Source: Ilex aquifolium | Lineage: Eukaryota > Streptophyta > Magnoliopsida > Aquifoliales > Aquifoliaceae | Direction: 5' to 3' | NCBI GenBank assembly: GCA_951799425.1 | Contig: OX637395.1 | Location: 16,974,951 to 17,038,950 of the forward strand | DNA: 64,000 bases | Shown here: positions 18,501-43,302 of the stretch, in pieces | How the letters are laid out: every line of letters begins with the position of its first letter | How positions within the stretch are numbered: position 1 is the first letter of the stretch | Position numbers and translations under genes: made by a program | Notes under the pieces: model-generated | Databases searched by the model: none | Seen by the model: only the letters and a program-made list of their open reading frames with translations | Told to the model about the DNA's origin: nothing

Positions 18501-21500
18501 AAGAAAAAGGTGTCCATGAAATAAGTCATAACGATTTAGTGATACGTTCAGTCCGATACTGGCACCCCGAGCAAGAATAAGTTGGAATAAAAACTCAAGG
18601 TATGAATTCAACTCCTACAAAAATGACAAGATTATGCACTATCGATGAATAGAATCAAACAATTGACAAGATTATGCACTATCAATGAAAAGAATCAAAC
18701 AAGCCCCGATAAGAAATGAAAAAGATAAAAAATAATTAAAAGCCATTATACTATGGTAACCTCATTTATAAAATGCCTCCCATATTGAGTTCTAGTAAGC
18801 TCACAACGATCCTCGTTTGATCCTTCAACATCGGGTACCTGTCACATTAGTAAAGGAATGTGCATTATGTTCGAGAATTGAACAGAACAAATCAACGGTA
18901 GTGATCTTCAAAAGAGGCAACAATTGTCAGAGATGGGAATAATTCTACCAGTTTTTTTACTGAAGTCAAATTCATTACTTGTCATATTTGTCTACTTGTG
19001 AGAGCAACATTTGTTGTTAGATTCACCACATATCCCGACTGACATCCATGCAAACACACATGGACAGGACTGGACATGAGTGCTATCTCCTCCCTTCATC
19101 ATATTTTCCCAACAGAGATTTTTTTCTTTCAATTTGTATAATACTTGTTACAATTTACATATGAAAACCATCTCTTCAGTACCAAAAATGTGACGCCCCA
19201 AAATCCAGGTCCTGATTATATCGCTAATTCAATTATCTTCCACTAAACCTTATTAATTAATTCAAGGTCTTGACCCAGAGGGCCAATTCCAACGAAATTT
19301 ACGCAGAGGAAATTTAGACAGAGTCTCTTCTGTAGGAGAACTCCACCAATTCACAACCTGTCTCAACAACAATGATAATGACCATCCAAAGTCCATTGTA
19401 ACTATCTAAACAAGATTCCTTACATTAAACATTAGCTCACAAAGTCTATAAGCCAACATGTAAAGTCTTTAAGTTTCGAGATTACATGCCCAAATAAGTA
19501 CAAGTCATTTACTTGTCAAAAGAATAGATACAATTTCCCACATGCCTTTACAAAAGAATACACAGGAGTTGTATAAACCAAAATACAAGGCTGTCCAAAT
19601 AAATACAAAAGGAACTTAGGAGTATCTAATTCATCAAAATAAGAGCTCCACCTCCGGCTCTATCCTCAAGCTGGGCCCAAGTGCAGGCTATCCGCGGAAA
19701 CATCAACTGAACCTGAAATGTTTTTTCCACGACGGGATGAGCCAAAGCCTAGGAGGGTCTCTGCTATAAGGTAGGCATCCCAACCCAATGATCCATGTTA
19801 TGGGTGATACACATTCATATACATCAAACATTCATATATGTAATGTACAACATAAATAAATGCTACCAATAATGCCATGACATGAGATAATGTTTCATGC
19901 ATGCATAATCAACTCCGAACCCAACTCGGGCTCTCACAACACATGTAATGTCATGCTCATGAACTGGACACTTCATTCCCACACAATCAAATTAACTCAA
20001 TGACCTTGTCATTTATTATCTCTTTTTCGGGGTAGGTAGAGTAATTATGGACTCTCACCAATGGTTTGCCTAACCAACACAAATTTCAAGACTTGCACCA
20101 CCGGTACGGTGTACACTGACACACTTTTATGAGCTCATTACACCAATGGCTAAGTGTATGACCTATATAACTGAGCCTTGCACTCGAGGCAGAATTTATC
20201 CCATCATTTTATTATCATTGTTACTGTGAGACTTAATCGGACTTTTGCCCAATTTCCAAGCCCCACACTCACCTATGTGATAAGTGACCAACCCATGTAC
20301 ACACAACACTACCATGCCAATATATCGTGGATGTAATGTAAAACTCGTGCACATGCCATGTATGCCCAAATGCAATGAAATGGACTTACAATCTCAAATA
20401 CCAAAAGAAATGCATATATTTATCATCATAGAATTTCATCAAATATGTAATGTGCATCAAATTACACACGTAGCATGCTTGTCACTTTCAACTTAGTAAA
20501 ATGTTTATTAATTCAATAAACATAAATTTCAATATAGCGACATGTTTATTAATTTCAATAAACATAAGCACAATTAACCATACTAGTCATATGCTAATTT
20601 ATCTATTTAACATTCATATGGATTCATACCCATATCACATGTTAATAAATCAATTAATCATAATAGAGTTCCAGTGTTCCACAAATTAAAAGATTAATTA
20701 TAAATCATACATTTAATCCAACTTACATACACACAATAGTTTGGAATTAGAATCAATATAAGGGAACCCCACCTTGTGTTTGAAGCTTTAAAAACCCCTC
20801 AAAGTGTAGGCAAAATAGTGGTGAAGAAGCCCTTTGAAGTGGTCTTACAAAACTTTAACAAAGCCAAGCAAAAATGAACAAGATGAACCGAAACAAACCC
20901 AAAACCGAGTCGACCCAGCTACTGTCCATAAAATTCTGGGCAGCAAAACGAGAGGGAATATGAGTGATCTTGGTATCAATGGATAGCCCTCGACGAGTAG
21001 AACACCGATCGAATTTTAAAGGTTGGATTGAGAGATAAAATTCAAAAAAGATGGGAAAAGTTGAAGAACTCTGAGCTTTCACTCTCTCTCTCTTTCTAAC
21101 ATTTTCAGCCAGGAAGAATAAATGGAAGACAAGTCTTCCAATGTAAGCCTTGTATTTAAATACTTAGTGTATAAAGTGTCAAGTGTCCCCCGTTGATTGG
21201 TCTGAAATCTACCAAAACCAATTACAATTTGACATGTGTCAAGCTTGGATAAGGGTGCTCTAACTAATTATTTTAAATACATTGTGGGTCCCGCGAATAA
21301 AAACCTAGCAGCTGACATTTAATCGCGTAGCACCCAACTGCGTATCTCACCTCATAATACGGATTTTTTTTTACTGTCTTAGAATTTAACGAAATTTGCA
21401 CACCTAACTCATTTTCTCGAGACGAATTCAACGGCACAGACCAATTTATCATCCATGCTATGAAAAATTTCAGATTTTAACTTTGCCTTAATACCGCATT

Positions 21501-24500
21501 ACACGTTTAATTAATTTATTAAATTTACTAGGTTTCACAAAAAAAAAAAACATTTATCAATTGATTCGCCTATACCAAGGTAACAATAAAAAGAATAAAA
21601 AAAGTCAAAAGTTGTACTCTCAGTCATTAACTTATGAGCAAACTTGTTCAACCATTTATTTTTGGATAAATTACAGTCACACCCCCTGACATTTGACTTT
21701 ATTATACGGACACCCCCTCACGTTTCAACAATTACACTGAGACCCCAATGGTTAGACGGAGTTAACTATCTTAATAAAAAGATTATTTTGCCCTTTTGTT
21801 TAACACAAACTTAAACCCAAACCCCAAGCCCTAACCCTAATCTTCGCCTCCTCTGCACAGTATTCCCAGTGCATTCTCTCTCTCTCTCTCTCTCTCGACG
21901 AAAAACTAACCGAAAATCATCGGTCTCCTCTCTCTCTCCCTCAGCCCATCTCTGTGTGTGTGTCTATATATATATATACACTTACATATATACATACACA
22001 CAGACAGAGAAAGGGAAACCCTGCCTGAAATCGCAGTGTCCATCACCACTTCCCACCAGCGTCCACCACCCATAACCACCAACCCCACTTCCCACCAGTG
22101 TCCGCCACCCACAACCACCAACCCCACTTCTCACCAGTGTCCGCCACCCACAACCACCAACACCACTTCCCACTAGTTTCCGTCGCCCACAATCACACAC
22201 CACCAACACCACAACAAAGCCATCACCGCCAAAATCCAAAAAACTCAAAATCCGAACCCACCCTCAAGGCACAGCCAAACACCTCAAAATTAAAAACTTG
22301 CCTTAGCCATCCACCACTTTTAGCCACAGCCAAACACTTCAAATCTGAGTTCTTCACAGTCGAAGGGGGCGCTATATTGTCCATCAGCCACACACACAGA
22401 GACAGAGAATCTCAAGCCGTGGGGGGGGGAGGGGAGGGGTTTGTTTCTGGGTTGGGGACTCGCGGTGCTTGGTGGATTTCACTGGAAGGTGGGTTATGGC
22501 AGTGGAGATTAATGGTTTGGTGGGTTTGTGTTGTGGATTTGGGGGCAAATTGGGTGGGTTTGTGTGGTGGATTTCACTGGTGGTGGAGGCGGCAATTGGT
22601 GGTGCAAGGAGATGGTGTTAATGGTGTTAATTATGTAAAAATTAGAATTGAATTTTGGGGCCAAATTTAAATTAATTAATGAAATTAACTATAATTGAAA
22701 GAATTTTGGAGATAAATTACCTTAATTAGTAGATTGGTTTGATTTAATTAAATTTTTTAGGACAAATTTGATTAAGAGATTGTTAATCTCAATATTATAA
22801 GGGTAAGAAAGTCTTTTTGATGAAATAGTTAACGTCTATCATACAAAAGGGGTGCGGTTGTCACAAGTGTTCAAATGGCAAAGAGTCTTAGTGTTATTTT
22901 TGAAACGTGAGGGGGTGTCCGTGTAATAAAACCAAATGTCAGGGGGTGCGAGTGTAATTTACCCTTTATTTTTTATTCTTTGGGGAGAAGAAAAAGAACA
23001 TTTTGGAATTTTCTAGTTAAGGATCATCCCACAACCACACGCACGACCTAGAGGGGGACCGAGAAAATTCCCTAGTTAAGAGAGGTTTTTCCTATTTATA
23101 TCTTCGGAATTAGAGTAGAATTGAGGACCAAGAAAACCTAAAATCGCGAAGAACTGCTCAAGCCAGAGGATGTTCAGAAGGCGGTTGTCACTGGAATGAA
23201 AAATGAAATTCAATTAGTCGAGCAGGAACCACTCGAGCGGTCAGGAAGGCGGTCTCCACTGCCTACTTCTCAGCCTTCGCGGGATTTTCCCTAATGGATT
23301 CAAAGACCACTCTAACCAAAGGCGAGCGAGCAGAGAGCAGTCCCTAATGTTTTTTAAGCTAAAAATCAAGCAAAAACTTGAAGTATTGAGCACCAAGGAG
23401 TGTTACTCAACTAGGATCTGACAAATGACTCAAAACTATATTTTCAAACAAGTTTCAATATTTAGAAAAAAAAATTCATAAAAATGCCCGAGTCATTCAC
23501 GGATTAACCTAATGAGCTAAAGTATTAAACCAATGGTTCTTAGGTATCTAGGTGACTAGGTCATTACCTTTCCTAAGCTCTTGAAGGTGCAATAAAGATC
23601 TCTTGATTCACCTTTGAATCTTGAACTCCTCCCTTACTTTAAACTTTCGGATCTTGATTTTTCAAGTATCATGACCATGGACTTAGATTGAGATTCATAA
23701 CAAGACTTCGCAAAATTAGTCAATTACAATAAACAATTTCCTAACAAATTTATTGTTCTCATCCCACTTTCCTAAGTCTATACATTTTCACCTTTCAAAT
23801 TCCAACTTGTGAATAATATTGAATTTCAAACCATGAGTACAACAAAAGTCCCACAAGTACTAATACCAGAATAGCAAGTGGAAAATTCAATGCATAAACT
23901 CACTAAGTTAAGAGAGGGGGGACCGAGAAAATTCCCTAGTTAAGAGAGGTTTGTCATATTTATATCTTCGGAATTAGAGTAGACTTGAGGACCAAGGAAA
24001 CCTAAAATCGTGAAGAACCGCTCGAGCCGGAGGATGGTCAGAAGGCGGTTGTCACTCTATATGAATATATGGGTGGTGTGAATATGCAGGTGTGCACGAA
24101 AGGGCAGGTAAGATAGTGTTCCAATTCATACAAAAATTTGTCAAAATGAAACCTAATCGCATCCTTGCATAACTATAATTAGCAACACTTGACAAGACTA
24201 TCCAATACGTGCTTAAATAACAGACCATTCTGTTATGTGCACTTTTTTGGGAAGTATAAATAAACGAAAAATAGAATTGAGGAAAGAAAAACTCACTTTG
24301 AGGGAGGTAAAAACATCCGCTAGTTCACTACAGCAATTTGAAATTTTGAATCTGTTTCTGGTCCTCGAGCTAACCCTGCTAAGAGTCAGATCTTCTTTGT
24401 TGGAATCCAGGATGAAGTGAAGCTGTAGATTCTCCATTGTTTTGGTTTTATTGAAGTTAGCATACCTATCAAATATTTAGGAGTCCGTATCATATCTACC

Positions 24501-27500
24501 AAGCTTAAGGCAATTGATTGTCATGCTTTTATTAGAAGAGCTAAGGCACGCATTAAACTCGGGTCAATAAAACTTTGTCTGTGTCATATGCAGGGAGGTT
24601 ACAGCTCATCCAGTCAGCCCTATACAGCATGCAAACTTACTGGTGTAGCCAATTCATTCTTCTCAAATTTGCACTAAAGAAAATTGAACAGCTATTGAGA
24701 TCTTTCCTTTGGTCTGGTGCTGACATGAAATCTTCTGGTGCTAGTGTGGCTTGGGAGGATGTTACAGTACCTAAGAAAGGAGGGTTTGGGATTAAAAAAA
24801 TTACTGAAATGGAACAAGGCCTTAAGGTTGAAGCATATCTGGAATCTGTTTACTAATGAAGGCAGTTTATAGACCCAGTGGATTAAAGCTTATTATTTGA
24901 AAGGACAGAGCTTTTGGGAAGTTAAAGTTTCTCATTCTTATTCATGGAGTTGGTTGAAATTTCTAATAATAAGGCATCTAGCTAGACCACTTTTGAAACA
25001 TGTAAATGGTGATGGGAAGAATACTAAACTCTGATTTGATGACTGGCACCTCCATCGGTTATTGATAACTCAATGGTCTCAAAGGGTTAAATATGACTCT
25101 GATCTTTCTAAGGATTCTCTGGTTAGTACTACTATGCATAATGATCAGTCGAATTGGCCTCTGGTTAATCCCCATGCTCTAAAAGACATGCATAGGGATA
25201 TGCCTGCTTATAAACCTTGTAGTGAGAGGAAAGATTTGATTCATTGGGTCCCCTCTGCAGATGGTTGCCTTTCAGCTGATTCCACCTGGAACTTTATCAG
25301 GTCTCCTCTCCCTAGTGTCAGTTGGTATCACATTCTCTGGTTTAATGAAGCTGTTTGTAATACCCCGTTCCATTTTGGCAAGGAACTAGTTAGGGAATAT
25401 TATCTTGGAAGGAATAAGAAAAATTTTAAAGAAGAATTTAGAATAGCCTAGAAGAATCTAGAATGTTGGAGAAGTTTCTAGAAAGTTTTAGAAGATTCTA
25501 GAAAGTTCAAGAATAACCTAGAATAGTCTAGAACAATCTAGAAGAATCTAGAATGTTGAAGAAGTTTCTAGAAAGAATCCGAAAAGTTCTAGAACAATCT
25601 AGAGAAGTCTAGAATATTTTAGAAGGTTCTAGGAAATACTAGAAGATTCTAGAGGGATTTAGAATATTCCGGAAAGTTTCGGAACGGCTTAGAAGGTTGG
25701 AGAAGACTTTAGAATATCATAGATGAATCTAGATACTTGTGGAATTGCCATGTGCAAAATAAGGTTGAAACCTAGAAAGATCTAGGAGAGGGGAGATGGT
25801 AGAATATTCTAGGGAATCTCCCCTAAAAATGTCACATGTCAATATTCTCTAGAATAATCCTAGGATGCCTATAAATAGGGCATTTGGGGATTGGATTAAG
25901 TATACAAGTGCACAAGTAGTCTTCCACTTTCAAGAACGAATAGAGAGTAAAAGAGAGAGAGAGAGAGAAAAGGAAGGTTGGATACTTCATCTAAGAAGAA
26001 ACGAAACCGTGGAAGAACAATGTATGCGATCGGCAACATCTCACTCTACTTCGGGTGACAAAGCATTTCCTTTGGACTTGAGGTGAGTGGTTTGGCATGC
26101 TACATATTTTCGAAAATTCCCCGTATCCCTAAACATTTTAAAAACAATACATCATACTTGTTCATTACTACCTTTACAAAATGTTTTACTAAGTGTCTAA
26201 ATACTTGTGGCATACGATTCTCCTTACTTTGATGAATTCTTTTGTGAAGTATTATGACTCAATCACTTGTTTATATGGTGAGACTTAGTGATGGTGAATG
26301 GGACCAAAATTAAAAGTCCAGGGAAATTATTCCTCTGTGTGCGGGTGACTCTAGCCACTAGGGAACAGACCCGGGGGAGGCTGAGGTGACCCTAGTGCTC
26401 AACGGTTGAAGGAACAGTATCTGGTGCGTCCTGGTGACCTTCACCGGATCGTCTTAGGGAACAGTTCCCGGGCACTAACCCCGTGGTGACCTTAAGAACG
26501 ATGTTGGATCCAACTCTGAGATATATTCTAGCATTTGGTATTTGGTTCCCATCAATTATTGGATATCGTACAGTCTCCACCATTATGATATGATTCACCA
26601 TTGTGGTATGATTTCTTGTTGAAATCCGATTGTGTTATTCTTGAGAAATTGGTTACCTTGCTGAAATTATTTTTCCAAATCTTTGATTTACATGTCGTAT
26701 GCCAAATATGTTTTTCAGCCACTTTGAATATGCATGCCTTTCCATACTGGGCTTTTTAGCTCATGTTTTCAAAATAAAATTTTTCCAGGTAAATGATTAG
26801 AGTGTCAATAGCGGACTCAGGGAATTGATTGGGGACTAATAGTGTTGTGACCTTCGTAGTGTATATCGTATAGCCATCTTTACTTGTTTGGATAATTGGG
26901 GCAAACAAGTTTAGGTATGTTGACTTTGACATATTGACATGAGATCAATTTAGTGTTAATGTTGTTTTCCACTCCTATATTATTAGTTTATTGTTAGGCT
27001 TACGTGTTCCATAGGTTATAGATCTATGGTTCACGGCCGGTCATGCCCTTGGAGTTGGGGTGTGACACTGTTCCTAGATGGAACTTTGTCCTATGGCTAG
27101 CAATTAGAAGAAAATCATAACCAAGGATAGATTGTTACCCCTTTGAAACTATATTGATCCTGAGTGCATTTTATGCAGGGCTGCCCTAGAGAACCATTGT
27201 CATCTGTTCTTTGAATACAATTATTCTATGAGTACTTGGAGCTCAATTGCATGCATGTGTGAGCCCTCAATTTGTTCAACCTCATGGGATAGTTTATTAA
27301 ATCATGCTGCTATCAACCGGAAGGGAAAATCAATACAGAATTTGGTTGCAAAATTATGCCTTTTTGCCTCTGTTTATTACATTTGGCAAGAAACTAACTC
27401 AAGGATCTTTTGTAATTCATTCAAAGATTCTGATACAACCTTCAGGATATGATATCTGATTAGAGAAAAGTTGTCCGCTTTGAAGCTCTTAGATTCTTTG

Positions 27501-30500
27501 TCTAAAGCTTCTTGTGCACAGTTGGAATATTTTTGTCAACTGCGTATTAGCTTGAAGTTCTTCACTTGGGTCTTGCTCTTTCCGATGTACCCCATTGCAA
27601 ATTGAGGAAGTTACGGACAACTATTTTCTGGTGATTTGTGCACTAATATTAATTGTTGAACTTCTAAAAAGTTTTGGGCTTGCCTGATTGAAGGCTTCTG
27701 ATCATCTACTCCAAGTTGGTGTTGTAGGGGTACTCTATTGCTTGACATATGATCTCTTTTTCATTGTATTTTGATTGAGGCCTTGTTTCAAGGGTTTTTC
27801 TGATTTTTTCCCTTTCATTGTAAGAGCTTCATGTCCTATTCAATAAAATTCCATTTATTTATCAAAGAAAAAAGGTATTTAAATACAAATTGGTAATAGC
27901 TAGCAAGATAACCAACACACCCCACTACCTAGATAACCACCCACAAGCACCATACCACTAATACATTAACTAAATAACCCTCTAATAACTAAATCTGAAA
28001 TTATATACAAAAATAGGCACACAACACATTCAAAAAAAATCAAATTACAAAAACCGTAATGGGAACGTATCCATGTCGGACACCGACACTCGTCGGACAC
28101 TCTTGGACACGTGTCCGATACTCTTTTATCCGTGTAAATAACTAAACGATAAAGCTTTAATTTCAGACACATTGCCGACACTTCTTTGGTGATGTGTCTG
28201 ACACCTCTTTAGACCATGTCTACTACTAAACAATAAACATGTATTGACAAGTAATTAAAAACTTAAAATTTTGACAATAAGAATCTTATATTATGACAGA
28301 ACATATAATTACCAAGACTAAATATGTTAAAATCGTACTCAAAATATGATAATAAATTCAAAAAAATTTTAAAAAAGAGAAACTGAGAAAACAATAACTA
28401 ATTATTTAAATTATATATGTTTGGTACACGTCTAAAATTAATTGATGATTATTGACTATTATAATGCTTTAGTCTAAAAGTTCACACTAAATGACTAAAC
28501 ATAATAATTACATATCATAAAGTACTCATTTCTTATGAATAATATATCATTATCACTATATTTTTGTGATAAATTATATAATTTTATATATAAAACACAA
28601 TTATTTACAGTGTATCCCCAACGTGTCCGTGTCTTATTTTTTTCAGAAATGTTGTATCTACGTGTCCGTGTCGTATCATATTCGTGTCCCGTGTTCATGT
28701 TCGTGTCTGTGCTTAAGATCCCACTTAAGATCCCATTAACGGATAAATATCTAACAATTCCAATGAACTACCCAATACCCCACCGTTCCACCACCCATAA
28801 AACTAGTCGGCTTTATCGTATTAGGTTCCTTATATATAGGTTCACTGTTTAGCTTCCTTATATTTAAGATTACTTATCTATCTATATAATATGGGACGAG
28901 ATTTCAAATCCTTAATTTTCTTTAACTTTTCGCGGCTAAGATCACTTTAGAAATATTGCAAAACCAATCTGATGGTTGAAACTAGGGGTGCAACTTGGGC
29001 GGGCCAACCCGAATTCAACTTGAGTCCAACCCAAAAAAAACAGGGTTTGTGTTAGAATTTTTAATACTTGAATTGGGCCTGAACAAAAAATTCCCAACCC
29101 GAATTGAATTTGGGCAAGCCTCGAGTTGTTTGGTTCAACCCCAATATACATAAATATATAAATATATTTAACTAGGGTTAGTATTTATCTTCACTCTTTA
29201 GATTCCAGACTTTACTTCACTTCAAGTCTTCATCTCTGCGCCTCCATCACTCACAGATCCCCCTCTCACTCGTCACTCTTCCCTCTCTCAGCCTCCCTCT
29301 CTCAATCATCACTCGTTTGAGTCGTCTCAAACTCTCAACCTCCCTCTCTTACTCCCTCTCTCTTCATCTGTGCTTCTCCATTCATCTCAGATCACTCGAA
29401 AAAATCAGATCTACACTTAAAAAAATCAGATCTACACTTCAAAAAATCAAATCTACACTTCAAAAAATTAATCCGAATTAAGTAACTCAAGCCCAACCCG
29501 ATTTTTAACCCAAAATCAGCCTGAATTAAGTAACCCGAATTCAACCCGAGCCAGTCCGAATTAAACTCGGGCAGTACTCGGGTTGAGTACCTCGGGTTGA
29601 GGTAGGGTTAGAGTTGAAGATTATATACCTAGGGTTGAGCTAGGATTGACCTCTCAACCCGCCCGAGTTGCACCCCTAGTTGAAACTTACTCTTCAAGTT
29701 TTGTTTTCCAACCCAATACTTTCCTCAACGGTTTCCATGTTTCACGCCATCCAATATCCCTAAATTGACGCAATCTTTCTCCATGCCCCTCTGTTCTCAC
29801 ATCGGCAAATTCTCAAATCCCTAAAATTTCCTTAATAGTGCCCATGTTTCACGGCATTCACACCCCTTAATTGACTAACTCTCTCACCACGCCCCATTCA
29901 CCGCCTCAACCATATATACACTTTCAAATTAAACGCTAACCAGCGTTAATTTGTCTCTTTGACTCTCCAAACTTTGTTTTCCCTCTCTCTGTCTTTGTCT
30001 CGTGCTCTCCCTCGCCAACCATCGCCGACACGAGAGACCGCCGATGCCAGCCCAACGCCTTCCCAAAACACTGGTGTATCGTCTATCTCTTCTACTTCTC
30101 TCTCTTCCTTCCACGCATTCCTGCAACTCAGAAATACTCACTATCCTAGTTATCAAATCGTGTATCGGAAGGCTTATCGTTTTTTAAAAATAGTATATCG
30201 TGTATCGTAAGATACGGTACAATTTTTAAATAAATAATAATAAAATATATATACCTTTGAAAGAAATCATACACTCATAAAAACAAAGCATTTCAATAAT
30301 ACTCCACCAACTATTCAAATCATCAACATAGTTCACTAATATTATAATGCAAAATTCACAACCATAGTTCACTAATTCAAACTTCAAACACCCAAGAGAC
30401 TTCTAATCCAAATTTCTAACATCTATTTAGATAAAAGGCAGCTACAGCTGTAGATCCAGATCCAGGGCTGCTTCGATGGCTTCTCTGGTTTTTCGGCCCT

Positions 30501-33500
30501 CGTCGATGAAGAACAGAGAGAAGACGGAGACTGGGCTTCAAGACACTGGGTTCGTCGTCATCAAGAACAGAGAGAAGAGAGAGGAGCTAGACTTCATTGA
30601 TGTGAAGAACAGAGAAAGCTACTGTGTTTCGTCGTCGTGAAGTCTGAAGAATGTCGTCGAAGGCTGCTGTGTTTCGTCGTCTTCGTCGTTGTGAAGTCTG
30701 AAGAACAACCAGGTCCCAGAAGACAGCGAACAACGAAGAGGAGAGGAAAAGAGGGATTTTCTTTTTTTTGTAAACCCTAGCCACTAAAACGACGTCGTTT
30801 TAGTGGCAGGGATAAAAAAATCAGTCTCTTATTAACAAAAAACGACGTCATTCCATCCAAAAAAAAAAAAATTAAACAGCCTCTGCGCGTATCGTTCGTA
30901 TCGTACCGATACGTATCGTATCGTAAAAACGTATTGTGTATCGGATGATATAACGCAAAAACGATATAAAACTAGGATACGTATCGTTTTACCTCCGTAT
31001 CGTAACATATCGTACAATACGTATCGCGTATCGTACGATACTAACAACTATGCTCACTATGATGCACACACTGGATAGACACCTCTATGCTTCCCCACAC
31101 AAACTCCCACAATTACCCATCTCTCCAAACCCGATAAATAGACACTAAAATTCGGGGATCAAACGTTGTTTTCTCCTCCAATGCCGCCAATTTGAGCCCC
31201 TTCCTCCTCTCTCCCCACCAAACCCACCACCAGTGAGCCTTCACCACCAACGATGCCAGTCCAGCGCAAGGTATCTACCTGTCTTTGTCTCCCTCTCTCC
31301 CCGTCTCTGTTCTCTCATTTCCTTCCCCTTTTCTCTCACTTTGTCTTCCTCCCTCCCAATCTCTCCTCTCCACATCCCCCTCTCTGTATGCACACCTTTC
31401 TGTCTCCACTCCCTCCCTCTTGCCCCACAGCCATTCTACCCTCCACATGCAACTTCACCCCCCCACTCTCTGTCTGCACATCAGCTACTTGGTAAAATGT
31501 CTAACACACGTCGTGAGCGAGTTGATTTCCACCCTTTAGTGTTTCATTGTCACTAACTTTTAGAATTCCATAGGTGACTAAATTTTAATTTTTTTGGACA
31601 TTAGGGGCCACAACTCCACTTATTGTCACAAAGAAACTACAAAAAAATTCTCCCCTAGCACAAACATAGTGCCTTCAATGACCCGCCACCGTGAATTCCC
31701 CACCTAATCCAAATATGTTTGTTAATTATTTTGGTTTCCCATGGCCGTAGCTTGTGATCCAATTCAATCAAAATTAGTTTTTTTATTTTCAATTTTGTCT
31801 CGATCTCAATTTCATATTCTATTTTGGTTTTCTTCTAGGTCCAGAAAGCAATAACAAATGCTGCAAAGAGAAATTACATGGGCTTTGCCACGGTACTCTT
31901 ATTCCACCACCTTCTCAGTGATTCTTATTTAAAAATCATCTATAATGTCTTTGGGTTATTTTTGGTTTGATTGGCACCTGCCTTTACACGAAAGAATTGG
32001 AATTATTGTACGAATTTCCTTAGATTTGTTGTATATTCTGTCTTAGTATCAGTTGTTTAGACTAACATCTACTGATCAAAATCCAAACACGGCTTTGGGT
32101 GGAGGCATGGTTTCCCATTTAACAACCCATGTGGATATATGGAATATCAAAGCTAAACATGGGTATTATTGCATTTCTTTTGGTAGTTGTACAATATATA
32201 TTTGAATATATGCGGCACAGAAACATTAGTGCTAATCTACATTGTTAAATGACCCTCAAATGTCTTGGCCATCTTTGTTTTGAATTCTCAAGGCATTTGA
32301 ATCCTCGTACATGTTCTTGCTCTAAAATGATCCCAAAAAATGGTTTGGGATCCTAATTAGAGTGAATCAATGGATAGAATTAGAACCTATTGTTGATTAC
32401 AATTAAATAGAGACTTTGACGCCACAGTTTTCTTGATGAATTAATTGGTGATTTTCACCATCTCATAATTAGTATGTTTGAATTGAAATTAAATAATGGT
32501 TGTGATTCAAATTATATTTCGGGTACTGATTTTAATTTGAATAATATTTTAGGGCCATGTCAATTGGAGATTAAATGGTGTAGACATGTAGTTTTACTAA
32601 AACCAACAAGTATACTTTTATGGAAATTACATGATGAGTGTGACTCATTTGTTTTCAGAGTTAGTTGTCATTGGTATGCGGGGGTGTGTTCCGTAATTCT
32701 GTCTTTTTTGGTTTTGTTAATTGAAATTGAATGTATAAGCAATCGATCTTTGTTCAGTTTCAATTAGACAAACAACTAAACTGAGTACAAATGAAGTTTG
32801 ACTTCTTTGCTTTGTATGTTCTTTTTTATTCACTTTTAATTCTTTGCTTTGAGTGTTGTGAACAAAATTGCATACCTAATTTGCAAATTAAAGGAGCATA
32901 ACTTAAAAGATTGTCGAAATTCTTTGTCCACTGTTGTAATATTTTCCCGACATTGCAGGTATTTAACCTCCCCCCCCCCCCCCCCCCCCTTGAACTCTTA
33001 TAAAATGTTTTGATTAATAATTGTATTGTATGTATAATAGAATTGATTGGAGGGGGCAATTTCTGTTCGTCAGCTTTGTGGGAAATTGTGGATATTAGGT
33101 GTTTATTTAATGGATTGTATGAAAGGTTATCGAGTTCTGTATACCTGTTACGATTACTGAGTCTTTAGAAAATAATTTTTTTCATGGAATTTTTGGTGGA
33201 ATGTTGGTACATTTAACGACAATGTTCCTGAATTTTTTATCTATTGATACATGTAGAAGTTATTGTAGAAGTTGTAATGCATCTCCTAATTCATGCATCA
33301 CCTGTATAATAAGGATATTCATTATTTGTAGTTTTCTCACCTGGGTCCATGTCATTTTTGTTGTTTTAGGACATATAGATGGAAGATGAAGTATGAAAGA
33401 ACCTATGATCCCCTCCATACCAATATATGTAGGTGTAAGAGAAGCAAAACACAATTGTGCAGTTGAATTTGGGGTGACTCTTTTGTTTCTATTCTAAACT

Positions 33501-34696
33501 TGATTTGGTGAATCTGCAGTTTCGGCTTTTTCATTATTATTCATTAAACTTAATTTCGTGAATATGTTGAATATATAGTTTCGCTTTTTCGTTATTATTC
33601 ATTAAACTTGATTTGGTGAATTGGTTGAATATATAGTTTCAGCTTTTTTGGATATTAGGTGTTTATTTGATGGACTAGAACTATTGATCTACTTCATCCG
33701 AGTTCGTAAGAAGTTTAACTGTTGTGGAAATGCTTATTAAACCATCCAAGTTGTGAATGCATGTTGAAATATATTTGTGGTCCTGTTTTGGAAGAAATTT
33801 TGCCTAATTTTTTTTTGTTTTTTTGTTATTTCGTGCCTTCAGAGTTCAGGCACGGACAATTGCTGGTCTATCTAATATGAGCTCGAGAAGCTTTTCCTCT
33901 CACAATCACCACTTATAACTACCATTTTACTATCTCCCTAATTAACCACCCTTCACTCAAATTTTTTCAAAAAAAAAATCAATTTCAATTCCTATAGACT
34001 CTAAGAATTTCTTAACTACCCATGTTATGTGATGGGAAAAAAAGAAAGGCCCGCCAGGGAGAGAATGAACGAGCCGGAGCAAGAAGGATTAGAAATTCCG
34101 AGTATGCCCGCTAGTTTATATCATCTTACAATGACTATATTCGAACATGTAGACAGATATACCCCTGACATGGGGGCAAATACATACCTAAAAACAGAAG
34201 GAAAAGAAAAGAAACTCACAGAGATCATTTTTGGATCAAGCGTGCGATGAATAGCCCCAGGATCACGGCCAGAATCAACCGCCAGGCGAGCGAGCTCCAT
34301 CACCGGCGCAGGCGGCCACCAAATGAGCTCATCCTCTTCTCTCCTAGTCCTACTCTGACTACAAGTTAATTTTGAACTCAGTGCCCGTAGAAAGGGGCTA
34401 CTGTCGGAATGTGGACTGAGATGACTTGGGGTGAAGGGGACGAGGAATTTGAAGCAGGACCTGAGTTCTTGGGCTACTTCGGCATTGATTGCTGAGGCTT
34501 GTTGGGAAGTGCCGAGAACAGAAAGCAAGTCGGAAGCGGTGGCTTTGAAATTGGGCTTGGGATTGGGATTGTTAGGCGAGTTTGAGTGAGATTTGAGGAA
34601 GGAAATGGAGGGGGAATGCGACGAGGTTGTGTAGGAGGCTGCCAGAGAGAGGGAGAGAACAAAGGCTACTCGAATTGAGAGAGATGGATTGCCCAT
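12469..34696 (-). CDS. Conserved plant protein of unknown function, five exons seen, 3' end missing
   Basis: Exons in transcript order are 34220-34696, 18761-18838, 18472-18614, 12911-12981 and 12469-12564, totalling 865 bp with no stop codon. All junctions are GT-AG and phases match across every join (phases 0, 0, 2, 1). The start at 34696 is the first ATG, in good context (G at -3 and +4), followed by a hydrophobic stretch at residues 8-22 that could be a signal peptide or membrane anchor. Residues 25-50 are Ser/Pro/Asn-rich; the rest is compact with motifs LIWWPPAP, VPDVEG, ELTRTQYGRHF, RYDLFHGH, FHAKEYPAY, FPYNMGFC and ILWLAPLP. I recall a single-copy, uncharacterised land-plant family with these motifs but cannot name it with certainty. 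The exon after codon 288 is not in the window. Introns 1 and 3 are filled with transposons, yet the frame is clean, which argues for a live gene. Confidence 0.85.
12911..12981 (-). CDS. Exon 4 of the unknown-function gene
   Basis: 71 bp, acceptor TTGGCAG, donor AAAAAG before GTATTT. It encodes FHAKEYPAYEKEVFPYNMGF. The split codons on both sides join exons 3 and 5 in frame. Confidence 0.87.
13464..13780 (+). pseudogene. Gag-like remnant of the small LTR element
   Basis: Two overlapping frames describe one broken protein: MTTRNKAQANTRRPYLNKVF, then after a one-base slip ELDEKFVEFAPMQNVEPVFY and on to a stop at 13780. No catalytic motif. The family is not recognised beyond its position just after an LTR. 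Confidence 0.4.
13976..14046. repeat. Tandem GCGAAACGCTTCATCGAG repeats
   Basis: Three to four near-identical copies of an 18-26 bp unit containing the palindrome-like GCGAAACGCTTC, just inside the left TIR of the hAT. Confidence 0.8.
14225..14840. repeat. Degenerate purine repeat (AGAAACAGAATC-type)
   Basis: About 600 bp built from AGAAACAGAA, AGCAGAAAC and GAAGCAGCAG words with drift. Both strands are open for 60-110 codons because the composition avoids stops (poly-Leu/Phe on the minus strand). I treat these frames as repeat artefacts. Confidence 0.8.
15724..15758. repeat. (TTCTC)n microsatellite
   Basis: Six to seven pentamer units inside the right LTR of the small element. Confidence 0.85.
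15836..17513. mobile_element. Non-autonomous MULE in intron 3, 9-bp TSD
   Basis: TIRs of about 115 bp start GGGTAAATTGCACCGTTAGT and, inverted right, GGGTCAATTGCACTAATAGT. The flanking 9-mers TTAAAAGAT (15827-15835) and TTAAAAGAA (17514-17522) match 8/9. There is no transposase. The interior has CT- and GA-rich runs and overlapping open frames on both strands (16713-17311), resembling captured 5' UTR sequence from a plant gene. Confidence 0.85.
17523..18471. other. Remainder of intron 3, no gene seen
   Basis: AT-rich, non-coding on both strands; it probably is original intron sequence, since it ends in the splice donor GTAAGT of exon 3 (on the minus strand). Short frames at 17868-18283 show no protein-like content. 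Confidence 0.6.
18472..18614 (-). CDS. Exon 3 of the unknown-function gene
   Basis: 143 bp, acceptor TTTTTGTAG, donor GTTTT before GTAAGT. It encodes ELNSYLEFLFQLILARG, then RYDLFHGHLFLATDSGRLGV. It ends in phase 2. Confidence 0.9.
18761..18838 (-). CDS. Exon 2 of the unknown-function gene
   Basis: 78 bp, acceptor GTGACAG, donor AATGAG before GTTACC. It encodes VPDVEGSNEDRCELTRTQYG and RHFINE. Phase 0 at both ends. Intron 2 is only 146 bp. Confidence 0.9.
19189..21539 (-). mobile_element. 2.35-kb solo LTR (family R2) in intron 1
   Basis: On the plus strand it begins TGTGACGCCCC and ends CTAGGTTTCACA, with AAAAA on both sides (19184-19188 and 21540-21544). It is the reverse-oriented relative of 7083-9487, sharing the GTTGAATTCGTCTCG block. 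No internal domain is present. The duplication is poly-A and so is weaker evidence than a complex one. Confidence 0.85.
21664..22964. mobile_element. Non-autonomous MULE in intron 1, perfect 9-bp TSD
   Basis: TIRs start GGATAAATTACAGTCACACC and, inverted right, GGGTAAATTACACTCGCACC. The flanking duplication TTTATTTTT is exact (21655-21663 and 22965-22973). The interior carries a telo-box-like CCCTAACCCTAA, a CT run, a 39-bp minisatellite and a T/G-rich tract, again like captured plant UTR/exon 1 sequence. No transposase. Confidence 0.92.
22048..22200. repeat. 39-bp minisatellite, about four copies
   Basis: Units begin CTTCCCACCAGTGTCCGCCA and end CCACAACCACCAACCCCA, with few changes. The repeat keeps several frames open and underlies the 190-codon frame at 22098-22670. 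Confidence 0.88.
23040..23760 (-). mobile_element. Copia-type LTR family R1, copy C (reverse)
   Basis: Minus-strand reading from 23760 gives TTTGTTAGGAAATTG, then the TGAGCACCAAGG/GCAAAAACTTG block and the GAGCGGT words shared with copies A and B. A TATA-like GATATAAATAGG lies at about 23089-23100. The LTR tail is involved in a local duplication (see 23053 and 23916). Confidence 0.65.
23053..24056. repeat. 140-bp direct duplication (23053-23192 and 23916-24056)
   Basis: Both copies run from GGGGGACCGAGAAAATTCCC to GGCGGTTGTCACT with about 90% identity by eye. They correspond to the promoter-proximal part of the R1 LTR, so the second copy may be a remnant of a second LTR or a local duplication. 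Confidence 0.8.
24345..25355 (+). pseudogene. LINE ORF2 C-terminal region, part 1
   Basis: Translation shows ANPAKSQIFFVG, IPIKYLGVR, SYAGRLQLIQSALYSMQTYW, IEQLLRSFLWSG, VAWEDVTVPKKGGFGIK and LKGQSFWEVKVSHSYSWSW, the usual order downstream of the LINE RT active site leading into the zf-RVT domain. Stops (near 24419 and 25033) and frame breaks (near 24580 and 24855) interrupt it. Confidence 0.88.
25431..25741 (+). promoter_or_regulatory. Tandem GAAnnTTCTA array (heat-shock-element-like)
   Basis: About 31 consecutive 10-bp units, nearly all opening GAA or GA, with only a one-base phase slip near 25585. The best block is 25471-25513, where GAA and TTC triplets alternate every 5 bp for nine units with one mismatch. 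The definition of a heat-shock element (alternating nGAAn and nTTCn pentamers) is established knowledge; that this array binds heat-shock factors is inference. It lies 130-440 bp upstream of the LTR TATA box. Confidence 0.75.
25870..25877 (+). promoter_or_regulatory. TATA box of the array-bearing LTR
   Basis: TATAAATA in the context GATGCCTATAAATAGGGC, a strong plant TATA box, followed by a GA-rich leader 70 bp on. Confidence 0.7.
27073..27873 (+). pseudogene. LINE ORF2 C-terminal region, part 2, with 3' tail
   Basis: It continues the zf-RVT region: PRWNFVLWLAIRRK, CILCRAALENHCHLFFEYNY and SVYYIWQETNSRIF. The C-x2-C and H-x4 pattern (CILCRAALENHCHLFF) is the zinc-binding knuckle of reverse-transcriptase-associated domains. 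A stop near 27450 is followed by further in-frame sequence to about 27603, then an untranslated tail and poly-A. Confidence 0.87.
27874..28060. other. Intron 1 sequence, no gene seen
   Basis: AT-rich, non-coding. Confidence 0.5.
28065..28725. mobile_element. TIR element with GTGTCCGTGTC-type ends
   Basis: The left part has GGACACCGACACTCG and GGACACGTGTCCGATAC; the right part has the inverse series (GTGTCCGTGTCGTATC, TTCGTGTCCCGTGTTC). The middle is AT-rich and non-coding. The ends are inverted and of the right kind for a small DNA element, but I could not fix exact termini or a duplication. Confidence 0.5.
28726..28974. other. Intron 1 sequence; possible Helitron 5' end near 28875
   Basis: The word TCTATCTATATAATATGGG near 28875 resembles the TC-initiated 5' end of many plant Helitrons, but I find no matching CTRR 3' end, so no element is called. 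Confidence 0.3.
28983..29678. mobile_element. hAT MITE with perfect 8-bp TSD
   Basis: TIRs are TAGGGGTGCAACTTGGGCGG and, inverted, TAGGGGTGCAACTCGGGCGG. The flanking octamer GTTGAAAC is exact (28975-28982 and 29679-29686). 696 bp, no transposase. The subterminal parts carry many AACCCGA/TCGGGTT words on both arms, typical of hAT transposase-binding repeats. Confidence 0.93.
29687..30136. other. Intron 1 sequence with an internal 70-bp near-repeat
   Basis: Stretches at about 29717-29790 and 29828-29900 are diverged copies of each other (CATGTTTCACGSCATYCA core). From 29950 on it is CT-rich and ends in ATGCCAGCCCAACG, similar to ATGCCAGTCCAGCG at 31252. No gene called. Confidence 0.45.
30145..31052. 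mobile_element. hAT-like element with perfect 8-bp TSD
   Basis: The ends are CCTAGTTATCAAATCG and, inverted, CATAGTTGTTAGTATCG. The flanking octamer CTCACTAT is exact (30137-30144 and 31053-31060). Both arms are filled with TATCGTAT/CGTATCG words, an extended subterminal repeat. The centre holds a GA/CT-rich segment with GTCGTCG runs (30470-30800). No transposase. Confidence 0.9.
32970..32989. repeat. Poly-C tract (20 C)
   Basis: Twenty uninterrupted C in an AT-rich setting. Similar tracts are at 12323 and 53466. Confidence 0.9.
33491..33650. repeat. 60-bp tandem repeat, about 2.7 copies
   Basis: Units run ATTAAACTTGATTTGGTGAA to TAGTTTCGCTTTTTCGTTAT with few differences. Non-coding. Confidence 0.85.
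34220..34696 (-). CDS. Exon 1 of the unknown-function gene
   Basis: 477 bp, 159 codons, from ATG (34694-34696 on the plus strand as CAT) to ATCTCT before the donor GTGAGT. It includes the hydrophobic N-terminus (residues 8-22), a low-complexity Ser/Asn/Pro stretch, a CFKFLVPF block at 81-88, ELIWWPP at 123-129 and a conserved end MELARLAVDSG at 133-143. Confidence 0.88.
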
Positions 34697-34792
34697 CTCT
34701 CTCTGTGACACACACAGTGTCGCTCGCTCTGTGACCGTGGTGCTCGCCCGGAGTGCGAAGGAAATTAGGATAAATTATAGAGAAACTAACGG
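34697..34792 (-). promoter_or_regulatory. 5' leader of the unknown-function gene, cut by a MULE end
   Basis: About 95 bp of CT-rich leader (CTCTCTGTG, GACACACAC words) separate the ATG from the terminal repeat of the 10-kb MULE. The original promoter must lie beyond the element, to the right of 44817, unless the element now supplies it. No TATA box is evident in the remaining leader. Confidence 0.5.
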
Positions 34793-36275: not shown

Positions 36276-38187
36276 CTAGCAATTGACAGTGCCTGAAAGC
36301 ACGGTGTTACTCGTAAATTAGTTACAAATATTTACTCATACATAAATGTAAAGTAAAATACAACATTGTAGTAAACGACAAACAAAATGAGTCCACTAAT
36401 ATTTTTTGTAACATCAACCTACATTCATAGCATATATTTCCACATTAAATTGTTACGCCACGGAAATTATGTTATAACTACTAAAACATAATAATTCAAA
36501 CATTTGAAAAAATATATCAGTTGACAATATTCAATGTTATGCTTTTGATTTAAAATCCACGATTTTAACATTCATAATCAACTTTATCTAAATAATAACA
36601 GAATTCATAACTAATAGAATGAAAATTAAAACAATACTCCCACAAATAAACTAAGTCTGCAGATGTTGTCAAATGACCAAATATAACTATTATAAATTCA
36701 ACTGACTTCCAAAAGATACGACCTGACTATTAAATTTGTATGATTCGAGTTTATAGTAGTGCTTTTAATTTTATATCATTCTTATCGATTGTTTATATTC
36801 TTAGTATATTTTCTTAAACTAAACGTTATTTAGTATTGAATTATTTAGTAAAGATTGTTGCTTCGTGTTGTTCACTAAATATTGAATTTGTATAATTCGT
36901 GTTCATAGTATTGCTTATAATTTGTATCGTTTCTCTCGTTTGTAATTTTGTATCATTTTTCTCGGGTATTTAGATTTGGATTATTTAGTAAATATTGTTG
37001 ATTTGTGTTGTTCACTAAATATTGAATTTATATGATTCGTGTTTGTGTATGAATTTAATCTTGTATATTTTAAATGTTAAGCATATTTTCTTTAATATAT
37101 CTCTTGATATCTAAGTTGCCCAATAACTTGAATTTAATCTTGTATATTTTACATGTTAAGCATATTTTCTTTGTTAAATTAGATTTTTTGCAAGTTATGT
37201 TTTTTTTTATTGATTATGGAAAAAACAAAATTGACAATTAAATTTGTATGATTCGAGTTTATAGTAGTGCTTTTAATTTTATATCATTTTTTTCGGTTAT
37301 TTATATTCTTAGTATATTTTCTTAAACTAAACGTTATTTAGTATTAGATTATTTAATAAAGATTGTTGCTTTGTGTTGTTCACTAAATATTAAATTTGTA
37401 TGATTCGTGTTCATAGTATTGCTTATAATTTTGTATCGTTTATCTCGTTTGTAATTTTGTATCTTTTTTCTCGGGTATTTAGATTTGGATTATTTAGTAA
37501 ATATTGTTGATTTGTGTTGTTCACTAAATATTGAATTTGTATGATTCGTGTTTGTATATAAATTTAATCTTGTATATTTTACATGTTAAACATATTTTCT
37601 TTGTTAAATTAGATTTTTTGCAAGTTATGCTTTTTTTTATTGATTATGGAAAAAATAAAATTGACTATTGCATTTGTATGATTTGTGTTTGTAGTATTGC
37701 TTGAATGAAAGAGAGAGATACAGAGGAATATTTTCATAATATACTATCTCTCTGTGATATATACTATCTATCTATAGAGAGATGTAGTATTTGCTTGAAT
37801 CAGATACTATCTAATATTTTCGTGATATTTTTGTGAGATACAGAGAGAGTACAGAGGAAAATATTGTGGAAAATTGATATTTTTTGTGTGAATTGAGCGT
37901 GAGAGAGATAGAGATACAGAGGAATGAGAGAGAGATTTGCTTGATTTAAGGAAAAGATTTGGGGGAATTAAATTTTGGAATATCAATTTTGGAAACTATA
38001 AATTTTGAGCAGCAAAAATATTTCAAAGAGTTAATGTGGTACGTCAGATCAAAACGATCTGAGACGTCAATAACTCGAGACAGTTTGAGATAACGTCATC
38101 CGTTAGATGATGCTTTTTTTTGTCACGAAACGATCTAGACCACTCTTTGTCTCTAAAATTCAAATTCATTCTACTTTATTATATAGA
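36276..38187 (-). mobile_element. Non-autonomous Helitron inside the MULE
   Basis: On the minus strand it starts TCTATATAATAAAGTAGAATG after an A (38188) and ends with a GTGC-loop-GCAC hairpin followed by CAATTGCTAG before a T (36275). TC start, CTAG end and insertion between A and T are the Helitron hallmarks. 1.9 kb, no Rep/helicase. The interior holds a large tandem duplication. Confidence 0.85.
36730..37710. repeat. About 508-bp tandem duplication in the Helitron
   Basis: The unit starting TTAAATTTGTATGATTCGAG at 36730 recurs at 37238 (period 508), and its beginning recurs again at 37668 after an 80-bp shorter copy. Within each unit TTGTGTTGTTCACTAAATAT occurs twice, so there is a sub-repeat too. 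Confidence 0.85.
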
Positions 38188-39954: not shown

Positions 39955-40155
39955 AACATGTTGTGTGGAGAAGTGTTATGATAGTGTTGTGTTGAGAAAT
40001 ATTATGTTAGTGTTGTGTGGAGAAATGTTATATCAATGTTTGTGTGGACAAATGTTAGGTTAGTGTTGTGTGGACAAGTGTTAGGTTAGTGTTTGTGTAG
40101 AGAAGTGTTATATTAGTTTTGTGTTGAGAAATGTTATGTTAGTTTTGTTGTCTCC
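39955..40155. repeat. About 30-bp tandem repeat, six to seven copies
   Basis: Unit TAGTGTTGTGTGGAGAAATG plus TTATGT, repeated with substitutions. Non-coding. Confidence 0.85.
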
Positions 40156-41387: not shown

Positions 41388-43302
41388 CTACAAACCACTC
41401 AGTCGCATCAGGTGGAATCGCATGGCCCTAACCTTCCACACTAGATCATTTAAATACGTGTTCTTAGAAGTTGTGTTGAAATTACTTTGTACATGCCTAA
41501 GACAGAAATAGTGATAAGCGTATAGCACATTCCACCCAGAATCAACTTGCTTAACCGCTGAGATTCTACCTTTATGTCGATCTGATATTAAGCATATACC
41601 AGCTCTATTCAACATAACAGATTGGCCTACATGATATAGGAACCAACCCCAACTTTCACAAGTCTCCTCATGAACAAACGCAAATACCAGAAGAAAAATT
41701 TATTTCTGAGCGTCAATACCAGTAGCAATCAGAAGCTTATGCTTATACTTGTCATTTACAAATATGCCATTAATGCTAATTACAAGCTGACAATGAAAAA
41801 ATTTATCAATCGAAGCTTTAAAAGCCCAGAACACTTTGCTAAATATGTCGAAGGTGGGAGCACGAGCTTCGTACTACCATCTTATAATCGTCCTGGGGTT
41901 GTATTTTACAAGATCACCCATAAACTTGGGCAAGATATTGTAAGAACTATCCCAGTCACCGAAAACCTTTGCTATGGTCTTATTCTTCGCATTCCACGCC
42001 TTCTTGTACATTTTCAAATATAGATATTCTTTTTTCACCATTTCTATGATAATGGGAATTGTTATATTTGGTGTAACCTGAACAAACTCTCAATCCATCG
42101 AGAAATAAAGTCCGCATCAAGTTGACAGCGGTCCTGATTCAACTGTGGATAGAAACAAGTGTGAGGTCCTTCATATCTTGTGATCACAAACATTTCGTAG
42201 TTTGCCTTGATAGCCGTCCGTAGCCTCCATTTGCATCCACATTCTACATGCATCTTGCACCTCAAAACCCAACACGTTTTGTTTGTATCAACAACAACAT
42301 ATTGTTGATGCATCTTTAATGAATACAATGTCACTGCCATCTCCAACTCTTTTTTATTCCTAAACACTATACCTTTCGACAATTCAGGTCTTGTTGGATC
42401 CCATGTTTTAAATTCATGCAAATTGCAAAATTTGTCAATTTCATTTTGGGTTCCCAATTCAATATTTTGTGAACAATGCTGACTTAGGCTCGTGCATATG
42501 AACTTCACCATCGTCCTCGACAGAATTACCTATGTCATTGTCATCATCAGACTAATCAGTCAATAATTCTTCTGACAATTCTTCTTGTTCGTAATACTCA
42601 TTCCGATAGTAGCACATATTCCTTCATATGTATTATTAGCAATCTAATGCATTAAAAGTTCTTGGATGGAGTCCATTGGCGCCAACCTTGGGCTAACTGT
42701 TATCATATCCATCCGCTGGTTACCTATGGTAGGACTGTAGTGTTGCTGAGATGAGCATTCGGGAAAAGTACTAGACTCTATTTCTGACTGTGCATGTTTA
42801 TACCAATTGTATTCTTCCATACACTACATCGTTACAGGGGTGTAATAATCATCCATCATTGCTGAAGGGCCAACCATGGGATATACGGTTGTTGGCTGAG
42901 TAGGGAAGCGTGTGGACCACCATCAGACCAACCATCCTGACTTCCTCCAATGTCATCGGACCTAGCCTATTCACTCACATACAAATCCACTTTGTTGACA
43001 CATTGATTGTCAAATATAACATCCATCATTGCCTCCACACCATTGTTGTCAACAACTTCTAATTCCATATATGTAAAGATGTTAGTTTCCAATGCAGTAA
43101 GAAATCTATAGATGAGCTTAAAGTTCTATTTATTCCTATCTATCCTCATCACATCATGCAACCTATCTACCAAATCCGAGTGACTTGTGTCATGAGCTAC
43201 CTTTATCACACCCTTATAACCATTATCATACCCTAAAACATCATCGTTTTTACTAATCTTACCACCCCAATAAACTATCACAGATGCACTTCTTCTAGCC
43301 AT
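41388..43302 (-). pseudogene. MULE transposase (MURA-type) pseudogene
   Basis: Start at ATG 43302 (MARRSASVIVYWGG). After a poorly kept N-terminal part comes the MuDR DNA-binding region (42062-42511): GIVFRNKKELEMAVTLYSLK, CGCKWRLRTA and FVITRYEGPHTC. After one frameshift near 42085 the DDE-fold region follows: FWAFKASIDKFFHCQLVISI, then KYKHKLLIATGIDAQK, FAFVHEETCESWGWFLYHVG, GICLISDRHKG and HYFCLRHVQSNF. Stops lie at about 41866 and 41695. The first catalytic Asp of the usual ISIDG motif is Asn here (ISING); the second (SDRHKG) is kept. The C-terminal third, with the third acidic residue and SWIM finger, is lost or unrecognisable. Confidence 0.88.

Follow-up and report, generated by a model that had tools for sequence, protein, structure and literature searches.

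The locus: a solo LTR in a host intron

The window analyzed here is a stretch of 64,000 nucleotides from the genome of holly (Ilex aquifolium). It contains a host gene on the minus strand, presumably resembling Arabidopsis AT3G15110; its exons were located by peptide motifs of an Arabidopsis gene. Exon 1 lies within 34220-34774, in an open frame spanning 34121-34774, for which Pfam returned no match, and is followed by a GTGAGT donor at 34219. Exon 2 begins at 18838, and further exons lie near 18.6, 12.98 and 12.5 kb. Reading of both the donor and the acceptor places intron 1, about 15.4 kb long, at 18839-34219 (minus strand).

This intron holds a complete solo LTR of 1712 bp on the plus strand (25356-27067, TGTAATACCCCG...GGGGTGTGACA). 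The LTR has TG...CA ends and is flanked by a 5-bp target-site duplication, CTGTT, read directly at 25351-25355 and 27068-27072; homology to full-length relatives ends at the borders of the LTR, and no internal region follows it within the window. The initial annotation had described a solo LTR antisense to a host gene in one of its introns, and this description is borne out by the two ends with their target duplication and by the minus-strand exons on both sides of a plus-strand LTR. The LTR splits a probable LINE remnant (24429-27452, plus strand), recognized largely from our reading of the sequence; a zf-RVT match to the right of the LTR is weak (E=0.017, below the curated Pfam cut-off), and Pfam gave no zf-RVT match to its left. 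Other repeats in the window include a MuDR-type transposase fragment (42062-42529, minus strand, DBD_Tnp_Mut, E 5.6e-8), two other retrotransposon fragments on the minus strand (RVT_1 at 4136-4618, E 1.2e-13, and Retrotrans_gag at 51794-52288, E 5.3e-21) and minisatellites at 36827-37089 (unit of about 140 bp), 39959-40148 (about 26 bp) and 22046-22196 (about 39 bp).

A TATA box had been annotated at 25870, and TATAAATAG indeed occupies 25870-25878 (plus strand) and is also present in diverged copies. The presumed R-U5 extends from 25896, a start placed from the TATA box, to 27067 (plus strand). Upstream of the TATA box, U3 holds a decamer array at 25431-25741 (LTR positions 76-386), about 130 bp away from it. 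There are 3.0 CG/CHG sites per 100 bp of U3 in the window copy and 2.0 in a young copy; the corresponding values are 4.2 and 2.8 for the array alone and 8.7 and 9.4 for R-U5, with a window average of 7.8. The window copy is best explained as a solo LTR left by LTR-LTR recombination, with an array that is partly eroded. Further downstream in the LTR, a 245-bp unit is seemingly present once in the window copy (26283-26528) and at least twice in the related loci L010 (1450-1939), L011 (258-746) and L012.

The array follows the pattern AGAAnnTTCT over about 30 units in the register of heat-shock elements, with one 1-bp slip between 25581 and 25592. In its 311 bp the trinucleotide GAA occurs 34 times, compared with a mean of 16.2 and a maximum of 25 in 2000 dinucleotide shuffles. 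Sixteen GAA share a single 10-bp phase (shuffle maximum 8), 21 have a second GAA at +10 (maximum of 2000 shuffles 5) and seven are followed by TTC at +5 (shuffle maximum 4). At lag 10, base identity reaches 0.60 (shuffle maximum 0.38), and the count of TTC alone, nine, is not beyond the shuffles (maximum 12). Tandem Repeats Finder reported periods of 10, 11, 20, 30 and 81 for parts of 25431-25741. The near-perfect 10-bp register that had been noted over 310 bp is thus supported by the lag-10 identity and the phase of GAA, but it is interrupted by the slip. The accompanying count of 31 GAAnnTTCTA units was overstated: about 30 decamers do keep the 10-bp register, but only seven carry both half-sites (GAAnnTTC) and five the full GAAnnTTCTA.

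The best block, 25471-25513, reads GAA-TTC-GAA-TTT-GAA-TTC-GAA-TTC-GAA in exact 5-bp steps, which agrees with the original reading of nine alternating half-sites with one mismatch. The mismatch is the TTT at 25486, where relatives sharing this core have TTC, and the longest perfect run in the window copy is five half-sites. The array contains the three or more adjacent alternating nGAAn half-sites by which a heat-shock element (HSE) is recognized (PMC5059998); half-sites for heat-shock factors (HSF) were scored by pattern matching only. A tandem repeat arises as one event, and its units cannot be counted as 31 separate ones; the appropriate null is that one random decamer happens to carry the GAAnnTTC register, for which the chance is about 0.3%. 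A match of the register by chance is unlikely, but not astronomically so.

The decamer array across the LTR family

A genome search with the array as query gave at least 49 matches (40 scored of 136 candidates), the flank at 25760-26136 matched at least 40 places, and the 3' part of the LTR gave at least 66 matches, 40 of which were full-length. A 26-base pattern from the LTR end, allowing up to two mismatches, was found at 109 sites genome-wide and at none in the control. Nine further solo copies with target duplications were recognized among 18 LTR matches examined. At one place (G000:C7:31489012-31496348), five same-strand LTR-end matches are spaced by 1826-1829 bp, which looks like tandem amplification of a unit the size of an LTR.

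The initial annotation had named absence of the array or of its GAA/TTC register from relatives of the LTR as a refutation, and the array came through this check. It was present in 47 of 47 distinct LTRs anchored on both flanks, the window copy included, and in all eight diverged copies fetched from 20 places that were found with the 3' part and judged new by eye; one of the eight has a shortened array. Array length was to be compared with that in full-length relatives, in which the array is likewise present, and it is 192-353 bp in the anchored copies (median 281). An LTR without an array would have entered the anchored count with a length near 0. The 47 LTRs were partly chosen by array and half-site searches, and a further 14 loci were left out because anchoring failed. 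Each of these matches the LTR and contains GAAnnTTC repeats: in L017/L018, which represent one place, the decamer repeats cover the whole array length, and in the other 12 they begin for the most part near the middle of the array, with the upstream part of the array absent from the main match. A second sample was chosen by the flank, without regard to the array, and consists of 30 of the at least 40 flank-match places, including the window. Here the anchored array was found in 26 of 30, and the other four have only the downstream part of the array and an LTR start that is different or lost.

By sequence, the copies fall into at least three LTR types: type A, to which the window copy belongs, type B with a different start and half an array, and type C with the same start and divergence after the array. 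The longest perfect run of half-sites ranges from three to nine in type A copies, is three in all four type B copies, and is three in seven and seven in one of the eight type C copies. Uninterrupted runs of nine perfect half-sites are seen in 22 of the 47 anchored copies and in 9 of the 26 flank-selected ones. The run of five in the window is exceeded in 29/47 anchored but only 12/26 flank-selected copies, 14 of the latter having runs of five or fewer, so that the window copy is a middling member of its family.

This standing bears on the possibility that the host has co-opted the solo LTR as a heat-inducible promoter or enhancer acting in antisense on the surrounding gene. In favor of it, the TATA box and the array are both present in the sequence, antisense in intron 1. 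We nevertheless consider takeover very improbable: the best perfect run here is five and not nine as in 22/47 copies, the nearer host exon is about 6.5 kb from the solo LTR, and in A. thaliana none of 16 ONSEN fragments or solo LTRs had functional elements or a heat response, according to the excerpt of the published study that we consulted (PMC5059998). The last observation argues against assuming activity of the window copy, and any effect of this copy on the host gene is speculation.

Long runs of half-sites set the family apart in the genome. Exact six-half-site runs occur at 73 sites genome-wide (0 with the reversed control; about 0.03 expected) and exact seven-half-site runs give 105 matches (reversed control 0). 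The 100 seven-half-site matches listed correspond to 38 places by count, and by eye all are variants of the core of this family; the eight distinct six-half-site places checked by alignment all lie in this LTR. Among the matches listed, runs this long are found nowhere else in the genome. For comparison, ten small-HSP promoters, taken from the top 15 of 57 HSP20 matches, have longest perfect runs of 3, 1, 2, 4, 2, 2, 3, 2, 4 and 2; these promoters cover 801 bp each and end 100 bp before the domain match, so that more distal elements are missed. Elsewhere in the window, covered by 77 segments of 800 bp, no segment exceeds three half-sites in a row. The genome contains 29 matches to the HSF DNA-binding domain (PF00447).

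The composition of the units is uneven. The TTC half is degenerate in many of them, its three bases being kept in 55/83/64% of 1290 units, and TAGAA is better kept than TTC. In a count anchored on the motif, GAA is kept at 84-97% and the inner spacer is without a fixed base. Alternatively, the array might bind another factor or be structural: it could phase nucleosomes or bend DNA with a period near one helical turn, or it could form self-complementary RNA toward the 3' end of the element transcript, where the array would fall. The 10-bp period and the better conservation of TAGAA are consistent with this, and so is the folding of the array as RNA, which is far better than that of shuffles (z = -6.8, a value reached by none of 100 shuffles). 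Yet self-folding is expected of any palindromic decamer array, whatever its role, and the order of half-sites, GAA-2-TTC-2-GAA, is exactly the HSF code. GAA and TTC would also be expected to give no long A-tracts. On balance a structural role or another binding factor appears quite improbable, and binding by HSF is the reading we prefer.

If HSF binding had been under strong recent selection, half-sites would be expected to vary less from copy to copy than spacers do. Across 48 ungapped pairs of related copies (some copies enter several pairs, so that the pairs are not independent), differences amounted to 155/3932 (0.039) for GAA, 184/3924 (0.047) for TTC, 102/2640 (0.039) for the inner spacer, 84/2638 (0.032) for the outer spacer and 458/10939 (0.042) for the flank. 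Half-sites and spacers thus differ about equally, and no purifying selection on half-sites is visible. Five same-locus LTR pairs, which include the tandem locus L009, are alike in GAA (12/412) and the inner spacer (8/276), with 3/410 differences in TTC, 2/276 in the outer spacer and 22/1197 in the flank. A full alignment within type A gave variabilities of 0.142/0.024/0.051 for the three bases of GAA, 0.242/0.207 for the spacer and 0.118 for the flank; this contrast between GAA and spacer was rejected as evidence of selection because repeat units can misalign there. Decay after insertion probably dominates the differences between copies, and it would mask an earlier constraint.

The similar divergence of half-sites and spacers between close copies would be expected of a neutral minisatellite in U3, in which slippage and unequal exchange expand a decamer and the heat-shock register is coincidental. 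Other observations fit as well: 33 of 47 array lengths are multiples of 10 bp to within 1 bp, blocks are duplicated inside the array (25451-25485 and 25541-25575 in the window are identical at 34 of 35 bases), and a chance register of about 0.3% is small yet not negligible among many repeats. These points have to be weighed against the location of the array shortly before the TATA box in every one of the 47 anchored and eight fetched diverged copies, the nine perfect half-sites in the strongest copies, and the preservation of GAA beside an inner spacer without a fixed base, as counted on the motif. We judge a neutral origin unlikely and favor an array that serves HSF binding.

Full-length elements and their coding relative

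At the loci L010 and L012, about 4.26-4.29 kb of internal sequence separate the two LTRs. The 5' LTR is followed by a primer-binding site, TGGTATCAGAGCC, and the 3' LTR is preceded by a purine tract, AAGGGG[AG]GAAGAA. We take the primer-binding site to be that for initiator tRNA-Met. There is no open frame of at least 150 aa in L011 and none of at least 120 aa in L009, and the longest listed for L012 has 111 aa. Pfam matched none of four frames taken from L011 and L012, two from each. A long internal region without coding capacity, as in LARD-like elements, is found in L009, L011 and L012, and from these three loci read for frames the family looks non-autonomous.

Neither a chromovirus Pol (RT before integrase) with a chromodomain nor a Ty1/copia coding region was found in the window-subfamily copies read, and the coding relative is of the gypsy order. 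This relative is the type B element L013, which encodes gag, aspartic protease, RT, RNase H and integrase in separate frames and has a weak chromodomain match (Chromo 23 bits, below the curated 25.1). The L013/L014 LTR is 86-89% identical to the window LTR over about 1 kb, and L013 holds the downstream part of the array, with only three perfect half-sites in a row. Since Pol and a weak chromodomain match were found in the related L013 and not in the window-subfamily copies read, we describe the family as related to a chromovirus and do not file it as one.

LTR pairs differ at 103/1932 positions in L010 and at 66/1924 in L012, and the pair L048/L047 has 0 substitutions in 2064 aligned bases, with two gap columns. 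At a rate of 1.3e-8 per site per year, the ages are roughly 2.1 My for L010 and 1.3 My for L012, and the insertion of L048/L047 is very recent. The latter element has a target duplication (ATTAC), a primer-binding site and a polypurine tract, and its array contains nine perfect half-sites. LTR identities of 100% in L011 and 98.4% in L009 were not accepted as measures of age because the repeated stretch extends past the LTR into internal sequence. Both look like tandem duplications for this reason and were left undated, and L047/L048 with its clean target duplication was used instead. The apparent whole-element tandem duplications have periods of about 5852 bp in L009 and 6281 bp in L011; another apparent local one is seen at G000:C12:14407373, 14413478 and 14419583, with a period of about 6105 bp.

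Predicted heat response and known systems

The array is real, family-wide in the sampled copies, and rightly placed for an HSF-driven promoter. Our best reading, to which we assign a probability of roughly 60%, is that HSF drives this U3 in the manner of ONSEN and that the element is non-autonomous and related to a chromovirus. This reading builds on the anatomy of the LTR, the array across the sampled family, the rarity of such runs elsewhere in the genome and one very young insertion. The array would act as an upstream enhancer in the U3 of this LTR family, with HSF trimers docking on the alternating nGAAn/nTTCn half-sites and driving transcription from the TATA box downstream. The family would then be transcribed, and formerly have transposed, under heat, as ONSEN does. 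Mobilization would probably have occurred in trans by related chromoviruses of the Ty3/gypsy type, which share the promoter and part of the array. Changes in array length would mainly have come from gain or loss of whole 10-bp units and from duplicated larger blocks, and if heat induces transcription from the window copy, the transcript would run antisense to the host gene. Promoter function driven by HSF is a strong prediction, and heat may activate the family; HSF binding, heat induction, mobilization in trans and any host effect are inferred. A further idea, which we consider unlikely, is that the U3 of this family provides the strongest heat-shock elements of the genome, surpassing those of the sampled small-HSP genes of the host, and that about a hundred LTRs, many of them solo, ride the heat response and rewire or titrate it, as heat-inducible promoters or as an HSF sink.

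Open-access literature, judged by titles and the starts of abstracts, gave nothing relevant for the exact core TTCTAGAA together with a retrotransposon and, among the matches listed, no plant LTR with such an array. To our knowledge, no plant LTR with an array as long as this has been described. The HSE-bearing plant LTRs compared with it belong to copia families, for which the excerpts consulted give three to six clustered half-sites. A non-coding, chromovirus-related family with far longer arrays, and with dozens of copies having runs of three to nine, would be a natural dose series for learning how the number and order of half-sites set the heat response. If the binding is real, the family would extend to plants and to LTR promoters what is seen with Helitrons, where a genome owes its densest HSF sites to mobile DNA.

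The array had been called unusually long relative to ONSEN, and the comparison holds: ONSEN LTRs are described as having a 4P element plus a gap element (excerpt of PMC5059998), and the window copy has about 30 decamers. The same excerpt gives six nGAAn for TERESTRA of A. lyrata and reports that 4P elements in Brassicaceae correlate with up to thousand-fold heat induction. The holly family is like ONSEN/COPIA78, COPIA37, TERESTRA and ROMANIAT5 in having clustered nGAAn half-sites in the LTR promoter region, and unlike this group, with its three to six half-sites, in the length of its arrays and in perfect runs of up to nine (PMC5059998, in part). According to the consulted part of a second study (PMC3907296), nTTCnnGAAn elements are present in all ONSEN LTRs, and an ONSEN stretch described in a figure legend has only CHH cytosines; the holly family resembles ONSEN in its CG/CHG-poor U3.

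ONSEN is a Ty1/copia element, whereas no coding frame was found in the copies of the holly family that were read, and the coding element related to this family belongs to Ty3/gypsy and has a weak chromodomain match; the heat behavior of the holly family, unlike that of ONSEN, is a prediction. The chromovirus L013 of the same genome has a related LTR and the downstream part of the array and, unlike the window family, carries coding domains. For the PHRE LTRs of bamboo, the interacting factors named in the excerpt of PMC8656106 are TCP, DOF and GATA, and HSF is not mentioned there. A parallel lies outside plants: in C. elegans, high-density HSE clusters are described only in Helitrons, and the holly family is like the Caenorhabditis Helitrons in being a transposable element family with very dense HSE clusters, including overlapping tandem elements (excerpt of PMC6927752). 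The Caenorhabditis Helitrons differ in that they are nematode DNA transposons with ChIP evidence for HSF-1 (PMC6927752, same excerpt), and the holly array is an LTR promoter array with a predicted role in HSF binding.
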